Shown here: piece after piece, positions 6,520 to 29,690 of the stretch
Layout of the letters: the number at the start of each line of letters is the position of its first letter
Position numbering within the stretch: position 1 is the stretch's first letter
Assembly (NCBI RefSeq): GCF_003574315.2
Contig: NZ_AP025739.1
Coordinates: forward strand, 6,200,001-6,264,000
Length of the DNA stretch: 64,000 nt
From: Capsulimonas corticalis
GTDB lineage: Bacteria > Armatimonadota > Armatimonadia > Armatimonadales > Capsulimonadaceae
Direction: 5' to 3'
Translations under genes and position numbers: made by a program
Notes under the pieces: generated by a model
The model's database searches: none
What the model was told of the DNA's origin: nothing
Seen by the model: only the letters and a program-made list of their open reading frames with translations

Positions 6520-7539
6520 CTATTTTGTTTGCGGAACGCTATTGGGATGACGGGCGGACCATTGCACCAAAAGCTCGACCAAACGGCTATCCCACTGCTT
6601 GCCGGCGCCAGCCTGGAGCGTCGCGAGGGCTTTGGCGGGAGACAGCGCCGGGCGGTATGGACGGTTGGACAGCATGGCGTCAAAGGCGTCCGCAATCGCA
6701 ACGATCCGGGCGCCCAGCGGGATCTCTTCGCCGGCTAAACCGTCGGGATAGCCTTTGCCGTCGATCCGCTCGTGGTGATGCCGGATGATCGGCAGCAGCG
6801 CCGCCGTGGAGCGCAGGGGAGAAATGATCTGTTCGCCGAGCGCGACATGGCCCTGCATCCATTTCTGCTCTTCGTCGTCCAATGCGCCGGGCTTGTTAAG
6901 GATTCGGTCCGGGACGCCGATCTTGCCGATGTCGCGTAGCATGGCCGCCTGGCGCAGCACGCGCATGGCTTCGTCGGCGAGGCCCAGCTCGCTCCCAATC
7001 GCCAGCGCAAAGATCACAACCCGCTCGGTATGCGCCTCATGGTCGCCGCCCTCGCGGGCTTCGACGGCGCGGCTGAGGGAGTAGATCACGTCCTCGACTT
7101 CGTCGAGCTGATCGTTGAGGGATTTGATTCGGATCAGCGAGCGCACCCGCGCCAGCAGCTCGACTCGATTGAACGGCTTGACGATAAAGTCGTCCGCGCC
7201 GGCCTCGATCCCCTGCACCCGCTCCTGGGTGCCGGCGTGCGCCGTCACCATCACGACCGGAATACGGCGCGTGCGCGGCTCGGATTTCAGCGTCCGGCAA
7301 AGAGAGTAGCCGTCGGCGCCCGGCAGAAACGTGCTGAGGAGCATCAGATCGGGGCGATCGCGACGCGCGACGCCGAGGCCTTCCTCAGCGTCCCCCGCCA
7401 TAAGGACATTGTAGTCGTTCCCCCGCCGCAGGATCGCGTCGATCAGCGTCCGGCTCATCGGCTCATGATCCACCACAAGCACCCGCGGACGCGCGGTCAG
7501 AGATTCGACATAGTTTTGATTGGACAGTGCAGTCGCCAT
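6520..7539 (-). CDS. Degenerate response-regulator receiver fused to HD-GYP domain
   Basis: About 339 residues: a receiver domain (about 15-135) and an HD-GYP domain (about 145-330), the arrangement of c-di-GMP phosphodiesterases. Both active sites are altered. In the receiver, the expected phospho-acceptor Asp is Ser69 (LLSTFLPGADG) and the usual DD pair is DH (24-25), although Lys121 (VKPF) is kept. In the HD-GYP part the HD pair is Arg-Asp (202-203, MLRDIGKIGVPD), while HHH (254-256) and GYP (263-265) remain. It may therefore be a non-phosphorylated, catalytically weak or inactive protein that binds partners or nucleotide. Start: ATG 7539 just before the receiver; upstream in-frame starts at 7611 (ATG) and 7644 (TTG) are possible and none has a good ribosome-binding site. 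Confidence 0.88.
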   Translation of the reverse strand: MATALSNQNYVESLTARPRVLVVDHEPMSRTLIDAILRRGNDYNVLMAGDAEEGLGVARRDRPDLMLLSTFLPGADGYSLCRTLKSEPRTRRIPVVMVTAHAGTQERVQGIEAGADDFIVKPFNRVELLARVRSLIRIKSLNDQLDEVEDVIYSLSRAVEAREGGDHEAHTERVVIFALAIGSELGLADEAMRVLRQAAMLRDIGKIGVPDRILNKPGALDDEEQKWMQGHVALGEQIISPLRSTAALLPIIRHHHERIDGKGYPDGLAGEEIPLGARIVAIADAFDAMLSNRPYRPALSPAKALATLQAGAGKQWDSRLVELLVQWSARHPNSVPQTK

Positions 7540-17008: not shown

Positions 17009-19234
17009 TTACGCCGCTTGCGCGAGGTCTTCGCCGGCAAGGCGGACGCTGAGGAAGGCGGCGACGCATTCGGGGTCCCATTGCTCCCCTGCCCCGCTGC
17101 GCAGGATTTCCAGGGCGTGCATCGGGTCCATGCCCTTGCGGTATGGGCGGTCGGTGGTCATGGCGCTGTAGGCGTCGGCGACGGCCATGACGCGGGCCAT
17201 GGGCGGGATGTTCAGGCCGGCGAGCGCGGCGGGATATCCCGATCCGTTCCAGCATTCGTGGTGGTGGCGCACGGCGTCCAGCGTGGGATGCAGGGCGGGA
17301 ATGGCGCCGACGATGATGGCGCCGAGCGTGGGATGCTCCTGAATGATCGTAATCTCTTCTTCCGTCAGCTTACCGGGCTTGCGCAGGATGGAATCGGGGA
17401 CGCCGATCTTGCCGACGTCGTGCAGAAGCGCGGCGACGCGCAGTACGTGCTTTTCTTCGGAGGACCAGCCGAGCTGTTCGGCGATCTCCAGACAATACAG
17501 CATCACGTCTTCCGAGTGATGGCGCGTGTAGCGATCCTTGTTGTCCACCGCGCTGACCAGGCCGTAAAGCATCGAGAAGCCGCTGACCGATTCGGCGAGC
17601 GACGCCCGCAGCAGATCGACGCCGTTGTCGCGCCCGCCGGTCTTCGCCCGGTGCAGGCGCTCCGTCGCCATCTCCAGCGTCAGCACACGCGTGGCGGCTT
17701 CGTCCGGGAACAGCGCCACTCCGGCGGAGACGCTGAGCGGGACGGCGCTCTCCGAGCCCGGCGGCTCATAGCTGATCTCTTCCAGGCGCTGGGTAAGGCG
17801 GGCGCGCAGCGACGCCACATCCTCGGCGCAGGCGCCGGGCATCAGGACAACGAACTCGTCGCCGCCGAAGCGGGCCATGCAGTCGTAGTAGCGAGTCGCG
17901 GCCCGCAGGGCGTCGGCGACACGCAGCAGCAATTCGTCGCCGACCTGATAGCCGTAGACTTCGTTGAAGAACCGGAAGTTGTCCAGATCGATGACAACGA
18001 CGGCGAGGGAATAGTTATCCTCCAGCGCGCGCGTCGCTTCATCGTCGAAACGCTTTTGGAAGGCGCGATGGTTGAGCAGGCCCGTCAGCGGGTCCAAATC
18101 CTGTTTGGCGAGCGCTTCGGCGAGCATCCGCTCACGCTCCACCTCCACTGCCCGGCGCTCGGTGATGTCCTGAATCGTTCCCTCGTAAAAGAGCACACGG
18201 CCTTCGGAATCGCGTACGCAGCGCGCATTCTCGGAAATCCACAGCGGCTCGCCATCCTTACGGCGCACCTGCGAGTCGAACTGGCTGACGCTGCCCCACG
18301 ATTCGATCAGCGCCAAGAACTCGCCGCGCCGGGTCGGATTGTGATAGATATCCCGGCCGACGTGATCGACAGACTCCATCAATTCGTCCGGGCTGTCATA
18401 CCCCAGGATCGCCGCCATGGAGGGATTGGCGCTGAGGATACGCCCGCCCATGGTGGTTTGGTAGATGCCTTCGACGGCGTTTTCGATAATACTGCGGTAA
18501 CGGACTTCGACTTTGACGCTTTCGGTGATGTCTGTACAGACACAGATCGCGCCGATGACCCGCCCCTCTTCGTCGAACTCCGGGCTGAACTGCGAGTCGA
18601 AGTAGATATCGCCCACATGCGTCGTTTCCCGGATTCTCTTGCCGGAAAGCGCGCGGTGCATGACGTCGATAATTTGCGGGTCGTCGCGATAAAGTTCGAA
18701 GACCGATCGGCCGACGACTTCGCCGGGGGTCAGTCCCAGAGAATTCAAAGCCTGGCCTTCCGAGAGCGTGATCACGCCTTTGGCGTCGACGGCGAACAGA
18801 ACCAGCGGAGCGCTGGTGAGGATGGCGTGCATCCGCCGCTGGCTTTCCTGTAAGTGGTTCTCGGATTCGCGCCGCTCCTCCACTTCGCGCCGCATCGCCT
18901 CGGTGGCGGCCGCGAGATCCTGTGTTCGCTCTTCGACAATCCCCTCCAGGCATTCGCAGGAGCGGCGCAAAGCCTCCTCGGCCCACTTGCGCGCTTCTTC
19001 CTCCTGCTGCATGCGCCGGCGCATCCGTTCGGAGAACGCCGACAGATAGGACGCGACGCCGCCGGCGATCGCTCCGACCAGCACAATGGAAATGACATCG
19101 GTCCGCCAATGAGACGGCCCGAGCAGCAGAAGGTTTTCGACAGTTTCGTAGGTCGCGGCGCACGCCGCCGCGATCAGGCCGATTTTGAGGGCGCGGGATC
19201 GCGGCGATGCGGTTTTCTGCTGTGAATGGATCAT
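17009..19234 (-). CDS. PAS-PAS-GGDEF-HD-GYP cyclic di-GMP turnover protein
   Basis: 741 residues: two N-terminal membrane helices (about 17-35, 47-65), a coiled coil, two PAS sensor domains (about 135-245, 250-365), a GGDEF diguanylate cyclase domain (about 385-545) and an HD-GYP phosphodiesterase domain (about 555-735). The cyclase motif RFGGDEF is intact and is preceded at the right distance by RYYD, the inhibitory I-site (RxxD). The hydrolase motifs LLHDVGKIGVPD, HHHE and GSGYP are also intact. One protein can thus both make and break c-di-GMP. The ATG overlaps the NERD gene stop by 4 nt, so both are read from one mRNA that begins with a c-di-GMP riboswitch. Confidence 0.95.
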   Translation of the reverse strand: MIHSQQKTASPRSRALKIGLIAAACAATYETVENLLLLGPSHWRTDVISIVLVGAIAGGVASYLSAFSERMRRRMQQEEEARKWAEEALRRSCECLEGIVEERTQDLAAATEAMRREVEERRESENHLQESQRRMHAILTSAPLVLFAVDAKGVITLSEGQALNSLGLTPGEVVGRSVFELYRDDPQIIDVMHRALSGKRIRETTHVGDIYFDSQFSPEFDEEGRVIGAICVCTDITESVKVEVRYRSIIENAVEGIYQTTMGGRILSANPSMAAILGYDSPDELMESVDHVGRDIYHNPTRRGEFLALIESWGSVSQFDSQVRRKDGEPLWISENARCVRDSEGRVLFYEGTIQDITERRAVEVERERMLAEALAKQDLDPLTGLLNHRAFQKRFDDEATRALEDNYSLAVVVIDLDNFRFFNEVYGYQVGDELLLRVADALRAATRYYDCMARFGGDEFVVLMPGACAEDVASLRARLTQRLEEISYEPPGSESAVPLSVSAGVALFPDEAATRVLTLEMATERLHRAKTGGRDNGVDLLRASLAESVSGFSMLYGLVSAVDNKDRYTRHHSEDVMLYCLEIAEQLGWSSEEKHVLRVAALLHDVGKIGVPDSILRKPGKLTEEEITIIQEHPTLGAIIVGAIPALHPTLDAVRHHHECWNGSGYPAALAGLNIPPMARVMAVADAYSAMTTDRPYRKGMDPMHALEILRSGAGEQWDPECVAAFLSVRLAGEDLAQAA

Positions 19235-20028
19235 GATGGGACACCTGGGAGAGTGGGATTTGGAGCGTGCGCTCCCAGCGGCGCAATCGCTTCACCCGCA
19301 TTCGAAATTGAGGGACCGAACAGTTTTTCAAGCTCCAAAGTATTCAAGCCGCCGGATGGCGCGGAAAGCTTCTGAACGTGCTCCAGGAGCCCCGACAAAC
19401 GCACCATCGGAATCGTGGGATGCACGCAGTCCAGTTTGAGAGTGTCCGGAAACACGACGACGCCATGGACCGGCGCTTCCATATCGCAATCCACCAGATA
19501 GTGCTGGACCGCCTTGCGGTTGCGTTTCAATTGTTTCGAGACACTGCTGCGCATCGGCTGGCGCACACCGTCGTCGTGCAGGCGGAACCAGGCGTCGCCG
19601 TGGCAGGTATAGTGACCGGTGTAAGTTTTGACCTCGACCACCAGAACGCCGAAGGGACCGATCACGAGCAGATCGGCGTCGCCCTGGTGCGTGCCGGGAA
19701 CGACAAAATTGGCGACGCAGGAGTAGCCGTCCGGCAGCGATTTGAGCGTCGTCAGCGCCGTCTCCTCGCCTTCCGCGCCGCGCAGATAACGATTGTAGTT
19801 ACGCATGGCCTTGACGCCGATGTTGACGCCGCCCAGCGCGAGGAAAGCGGCCGCCGCGAATCCGTAGCCGCCAAAATGCGCCGCCTCGGACCAGAGGAGC
19901 ACACCGCCGCCGACTCCCGCCACCGCGAGGGTTCCTTCAATACGCATGACCTTGTCCGCGTACCGCGCATGCCGAATCACTTTCATATGATCTATTGTCG
20001 GCAGGATGATTGCCTTGCTCCAGATCAT
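19231..20028 (-). CDS. NERD-domain (nuclease-related) membrane protein
   Basis: 265 residues. Two hydrophobic helices (about 33-48, 55-72) precede a NERD domain (about 85-200), a PD-(D/E)xK nuclease-like fold. The expected acidic and basic residues are present: Glu89 region, Asp117 and Asp119 (HQGDADLLV), Glu132 and Lys134 (VVEVKTY). NERD proteins are mostly uncharacterised; DNA or RNA processing is presumed. It is the first gene after the c-di-GMP riboswitch and overlaps the cyclase/hydrolase gene by ATGA, so its output should respond to c-di-GMP. Start ATG 20028 has a short GGA site; ATG 19986 is possible. Confidence 0.85.
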   Translation of the reverse strand: MIWSKAIILPTIDHMKVIRHARYADKVMRIEGTLAVAGVGGGVLLWSEAAHFGGYGFAAAAFLALGGVNIGVKAMRNYNRYLRGAEGEETALTTLKSLPDGYSCVANFVVPGTHQGDADLLVIGPFGVLVVEVKTYTGHYTCHGDAWFRLHDDGVRQPMRSSVSKQLKRNRKAVQHYLVDCDMEAPVHGVVVFPDTLKLDCVHPTIPMVRLSGLLEHVQKLSAPSGGLNTLELEKLFGPSISNAGEAIAPLGAHAPNPTLPGVPS

Positions 20029-20070
20029 TTTTCCATGAAGCGAGCAGGTGTTAACAGGGAATCTGAAACG

Positions 20071-20115
20071 TACAAAACGCCCGAGCCTCTTCCTAGAAGA
20101 GACCGGGCGTTTTGT
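20071..20115 (-). terminator. Terminator hairpin in the riboswitch expression platform
   Basis: Long stem: minus strand ACAAAACGCCCG pairs with CGGGCGTTTTGT, and inner CTCTTC with GAAGAG. It lies directly after the c-di-GMP-I aptamer and before the NERD start, so it is the likely switch element. Confidence 0.8.
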
Positions 20116-20127
20116 AATCTATAGCAC

Positions 20128-20242
20128 GCACTCGCACTTTCGGAAACGTGGCTGCCATTCCGGGTCCGCCATCGGCGGTCCGGTTTCAGGCCCATGCGCT
20201 TTGCGTCCTCCCCTTTCGGAGAGTTTGCCTTTGTCGAGCAGC
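20128..20242 (-). ncRNA. Cyclic di-GMP-I (GEMM-I) riboswitch aptamer
   Basis: On the minus strand the conserved GEMM-I segments appear in order: AAAGGCAAAC, a stem capped by a GAAA tetraloop (CTCTCC-GAAA-GGGGAG), GACGCAAAGC, GGGCCTGAAAC, then ATGGCAGCCACGTTTCC. The closing stem is GCTCG with CGAG near the ends. These blocks match the Vc2-type fold in which the tetraloop docks in a receptor and c-di-GMP sits at the three-way junction. A terminator hairpin follows, then the NERD and GGDEF/HD-GYP genes. Direction of control (on or off) cannot be read with certainty. Confidence 0.9.
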
Positions 20243-20265
20243 GATCGGTGGGTTATGGTGATATC

Positions 20266-20271
20266 ATTATA
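20266..20271 (-). promoter_or_regulatory. -10 element ahead of the riboswitch
   Basis: Minus-strand TATAAT about 25-30 nt before the aptamer; no good -35 is seen. Confidence 0.5.
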
Positions 20272-20312
20272 GGAGTTTCACCGGGATTTCTTTACCTGTC
20301 ATTCCTACGGAG

Positions 20313-29417: not shown

Positions 29418-29494
29418 TGGTGCGCCCGGCAGGACTCGAACCTGCGGCCTATTGCTCCGCAAGCAATCGCTCTAATCCACTGAGCTACGAGCGC
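29418..29494 (-). tRNA. tRNA-Arg copy 1 (anticodon GCG as read)
   Basis: 77 nt with encoded CCA. Acceptor GCGCTCG pairs with CGGGCGC, anticodon stem ATTGC/GCAAT, loop TTGCGGA giving GCG, T-arm GCAGG-TTCGAGT-CCTGC. Identical to copy 2. Confidence 0.93.
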
Positions 29495-29613: not shown

Positions 29614-29690
29614 TGGTGCGCCCGGCAGGACTCGAACCTGCGGCCTATTGCTCCGCAAGCAATCGCTCTAATCCACTGAGCTACGAGCGC
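29614..29690 (-). tRNA. tRNA-Arg copy 2 (anticodon GCG as read)
   Basis: Base-for-base the same 77 nt as copy 1, including CCA, with its own promoter and terminator. Confidence 0.93.

Follow-up and report, generated by a model that had tools for sequence, protein, structure and literature searches.

A c-di-GMP-I aptamer and terminator unit upstream of a NERD operon in Capsulimonas corticalis and its possible role as an autonomous RNA

One stand-alone c-di-GMP riboswitch RNA was found in the literature consulted: merRNA of Bdellovibrio, a predator. In Bdellovibrio bacteriovorus, merRNA is a massively expressed non-coding RNA of 445 nt that contains a c-di-GMP riboswitch (PMC3627812). It has no conserved ORF downstream and was proposed to serve as a c-di-GMP reservoir; it has been reported only from Bdellovibrio, and conservation beyond that lineage was not found (PMC3627812). 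A different arrangement is seen in Cd1, an OFF switch whose aptamer can be present together with the terminator, and whose antiterminator is formed by the terminator arm and the 3' strand of the aptamer (PMC9262584).

The window analyzed here is a 64,000-nt stretch of the single-contig, 7.65 Mb genome of C. corticalis. Its relevant features are as follows.

20266-20273, minus strand: -10 element CCTATAAT of the RNA unit (shared motif class; within the conserved block)
20124-20248 (approximate), minus strand: P1 helix around the aptamer, arms UCGC / GCGA near both ends (consensus fold)
20138-20238, minus strand: c-di-GMP-I aptamer core with canonical G20/A47/C92 (RF03167, RF01051, six-sequence structure with covariation)
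20071-20116, minus strand: terminator hairpin AAAACGCCCGG...CGGGCGTTTT, symmetric and bidirectional-looking (fold energy, conservation)
19994-20001, minus strand: second -10-like motif CCGACAAT, putative promoter of the NERD operon itself (5/5 orthologues)
19231-19986, minus strand: NERD-domain gene, 251 aa, without a Shine-Dalgarno (SD) sequence and with hydrophobic N-terminal stretches (PF08378, E 7e-19; orthologues)
17009-19234, minus strand: PAS-PAS-GGDEF-HD-GYP gene, 741 aa, overlapping NERD by ATGA (GGDEF 9.8e-34, HD_5 1.6e-39)

Likened by description, merRNA appears to be the nearest known analogue of the window RNA. The trait they would share is a c-di-GMP-I RNA with no sense gene downstream, which is seen here for a second copy of the unit, own2. 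The window RNA differs in that it is predicted from sequence and would be ~190 nt long, and NERD lies 85 nt past its terminator; one of the two copies here thus adjoins a conserved gene. Cd1 of Clostridioides difficile has the same aptamer family and contact bases, followed by an intrinsic terminator (PMC9262584, PMC6366702). In contrast to Cd1, the window copy shows no detectable pairing between the terminator arm and the aptamer 3' strand, and the gene that follows has a promoter-like motif and no SD. The c-di-GMP-I leaders of flgM and of secreted-protease genes in the phylum (Armatimonadota) share the aptamer and, in some cases, the -10 motif class. Behind these leaders the gene starts are preceded by an SD, with no -10 motif nearby, and the flgM leaders show no strong terminator.

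The aptamer and its conserved block

The preliminary description of this stretch had proposed a c-di-GMP-I aptamer, and the Rfam search agreed. In the whole-genome search the window aptamer scored 65.0 bits against RF01051 (gathering cut-off 35). The bases with known ligand-contact roles (PMC9049102) are G20 at window position 20229, A47 at 20202 and C92 at 20143, in a Vc2 numbering that is our own mapping from the RF03167 alignment. By score and contact bases, it was confirmed as a canonical c-di-GMP-I aptamer.

A cmscan of the window placed the same RNA just over the curated cut-off of RF03167, c-di-GMP-I-GGC (60.3 bits versus 59, E 9.4e-12). We take the mark of this variant to be a G replacing A47, as read from the consensus; the letters GGC presumably refer to this. 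The window aptamer does not have a G at model position 37, as the RF03167 consensus does, and carries the canonical A instead. The variant ligand site suggested by the label was therefore ruled out, since position 37 is an A and the three contacts are canonical. Judged from these bases, the best Rfam label is a narrow win by E-value and the ligand site is unchanged.

Three c-di-GMP-I aptamers were found in the genome with RF01051: the window copy, own2 (C1:2169165; L007 6166-6264, minus) and own3 (C1:1535705; L008 5705-5825). The last lies 5' of flgM (PF04316, anti-sigma-28; L008 5898-6203). A similar order, with a short MKIS/MRIS-type ORF after the aptamer, is seen again in many relatives (G002a, G004f, G005a, G006a and others). 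Relatives also carry single and tandem c-di-GMP-I aptamers 5' of predicted secreted protease-like genes, with an SD near the aptamer (L039, L041, L042, L044, L045, L050, L051, L065 and L066).

The window copy and own2 were aligned with the unit of G001, a member of the same genus and the closest relative within the genome set. Conservation begins at the -10 and ends directly past the terminator. Between the window and own2, identity is 82% in the aptamer and 76% from aptamer to terminator, and about 20% past the terminator. The -10 of the window unit is part of this conserved block, and its motif class, CCNATAAT, occurs upstream of many c-di-GMP-I RNAs across the phylum. From its position, the 5' start of the RNA would lie near 20259. 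EM motif discovery on the leaders blended the -10 with a P1-strand motif and, therefore, explicit patterns were applied instead.

Inspection of the own2 neighborhood revealed no sense gene 3' of the unit. Past its hairpin, after 27 nt, comes the 3' end of a convergent gene for a kumamolisin-type protease; the upstream neighbor of the unit is a divergent sigma-factor gene. It may be that own2 is a relic left after the loss of its gene. A further candidate orphan unit, G005b, was set aside for its SD-bearing ORF downstream.

A single consensus fold of six units holds the aptamer helices, P1 and the terminator together, with 92.1% of cells paired overall and 100% by pair counts in P1. Sixteen pairs show two-sided changes, and the covariation score was 0.33 compared to 0.17 when shuffled (0/500). 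The terminator is conserved across the six units with 6 two-sided changed pairs, and its arms pair with a probability of 0.998. A strong terminator hairpin had been described at 20071-20115, and the prediction held: the hairpin runs from 20116 to 20071 with a stability of -32.8 kcal/mol. A simple pattern scan for terminators did not flag it, probably because the U-run sits within the hairpin stem. Taken as sequence, the promoter-aptamer-terminator block is self-contained. A C-rich 5' segment, UAACCCACC (window 20241-20258, minus), precedes the aptamer and is conserved in the window, G001 and own2; it is predicted to be unpaired and is a possible seed region.

The NERD gene and its start

The full NERD ORF spans 19231-20028. 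Translation most probably begins with the ATG at 19986 rather than at 20028; the orthologues begin M(K/N)VIRHAR. Close orthologues were found in 5 of 61 genomes, namely this genome and four others of the family, and the RNA unit is directly upstream in all five. The terminator-to-ATG spacing is 85 nt in the window and 89, 45, 45 and 45 nt in the others. This strict synteny suggests that the unit and NERD are functionally linked. The orthologue of G004 (L043, G004 C397 8920-9309) is split across two frames below an intact RNA unit, from either a frameshift or an assembly error.

No SD precedes NERD in any of the five orthologues. Instead, a C[CT]NA[TC]AAT motif, of the same class as the -10 before the RNAs, starts 14-17 nt upstream of the ATG in each of them. 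The window motif CCGACAAT is the weakest match of the five, with one deviation. Resampling put the chance of this second motif at ~0.005 per sequence, a figure that is optimistic, since the five orthologues share descent and the test came after the motif had been seen. Other c-di-GMP-I-led genes in the phylum showed the opposite pattern, an SD-like stretch in 24/24 (with GGGGG included in the SD pattern list) and a -10-like motif in 0/24. In a crude genome-wide test, ATAAT at leaderless spacing was not clearly enriched (571 versus 524), and the stricter pattern TGCCNATAAT-N6-ATG had zero matches genome-wide. Elsewhere in the window, the ATG of a response-regulator/HD-GYP gene (6523-7539, minus) lies 6 nt past CCGATAAT, and this gene is probably leaderless.

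Autonomous RNA or operon leader

With moderate confidence, we favor an autonomous c-di-GMP-binding RNA of ~190 nt beside an independently started NERD operon. The promoter at 20266-20273, the short 5' segment, the P1-closed aptamer and the strong intrinsic terminator would form one transcription unit, and the RNA would end at 20071-20116 with or without ligand. The NERD-(PAS-GGDEF-HD-GYP) operon would start at a separate, likewise active promoter just 5' of the NERD ATG, and its mRNA would probably be leaderless or near-leaderless. The RNA would then not be an operon leader but a separate c-di-GMP receptor: it could serve as a buffer or sink, the role that has been proposed for merRNA, or regulate in trans in a ligand-gated manner. 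The position of the unit directly upstream of NERD in all five genomes speaks against this reading.

The main rival, which we regard as rather unlikely, is a conventional attenuating OFF riboswitch, close to the circuit of the preliminary description. The ligand-held aptamer would leave the terminator to form and switch off NERD-GGDEF/HD-GYP, and the ligand-free RNA would form an antiterminator and allow read-through. This is the commonest role for RNAs of such kind. Aptamer, terminator and gene stand in the expected order on the same strand, and the best support for an OFF switch is the strict co-occurrence of unit and NERD (5/5 genomes). The coexistence of aptamer and terminator is also known from Cd1 (PMC9262584).

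Cd1-like pairing of the aptamer strand with the terminator arm was equaled or bettered in 455/500 shuffles of the window copy and 492/500 of G001, and a broader antiterminator search of the window copy found nothing either. The signal is also missing in G002c and G006e. Pairing was borderline in own2 (44/500 shuffles) and G004c (45/500); from its sequence, the latter looks like a real antiterminator candidate and is a point in favor of the OFF switch. Other terminator-bearing leaders in the phylum gave negative results too, so the test has no demonstrated positive; the absent signal, therefore, counts weakly against attenuation. The OFF switch is further opposed by a downstream enzyme gene that is not conserved. 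The second -10-like motif, the lack of an SD before NERD and the gene-less own2 argue against it as well. Of the earlier reading, the canonical aptamer and the hairpin terminator directly upstream of NERD do stand, and some control by read-through may still occur.

A mixed system would accommodate both the strict synteny and the second promoter motif, and we think it improbable. Here, a constitutive small RNA and a NERD promoter would coexist, and rare ligand-dependent read-through would add to or interfere with the downstream promoter. The read-through mRNA would, however, have a long leader without an SD. Least probable is a relic or structural use, with the block serving mainly as an insulator or a terminator for both directions and with ligand binding of no importance. 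The symmetric hairpin and its place between convergent transcription units at own2 would suit such a use, but mere termination needs none of the contact bases, aptamer helices and compensatory changes kept across six units.

Returning to the autonomous RNA, a more specific and tentative proposal is a family-specific, duplicated, stand-alone c-di-GMP-gated trans RNA, which would buffer the pool or expose UAACCCACC to target mRNAs. This would be a second, independent merRNA-like origin, outside Bdellovibrio. If true, the two natural copies, one of them gene-less, would make the reservoir or receptor idea testable by deletion. The locus is also a warning that the order aptamer, terminator, gene is by itself no proof of cis-control.

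The enzyme gene and the proposed feedback loop

The NERD gene, the ATGA overlap, the GGDEF/HD-GYP gene and its RYYD I-site, all named in the earlier account, are present in the sequence. The enzyme has RYYD-x5-GGDEF (I-site RxxD, 5 residues before GGDEF), HDVGKIG and HHECWNGSGYP; its active-site motifs and I-site look intact. The same account had joined these parts into a closed feedback circuit at one locus, which the findings do not support. The block is self-contained, a second copy has no gene, NERD has a -10-like motif of its own and the window copy shows no Cd1-type antiterminator. In addition, G002, G006 and G004 have the unit and NERD with no GGDEF/HD-GYP gene next, so the enzyme gene is a genus-level neighbor of NERD. 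The genome encodes 51 GGDEF domains, and this enzyme is, therefore, one contributor among many to the c-di-GMP pool. Since synthetic and hydrolytic domains are combined in one enzyme, a loop would not even have a defined sign.

The HD-GYP half aligns with both PmGH (4mcw) and the 3'3'-cGAMP phosphodiesterase 5z7c, and thus sequence alone does not fix its substrate. A Hypr-type cGAMP-making enzyme was not favored on reading the sequence, with the usual Asp in GGDEF and G20 in the aptamer. The window also holds two identical tRNA genes on the minus strand (29421-29494 and 29617-29690), spaced ~120 nt apart.
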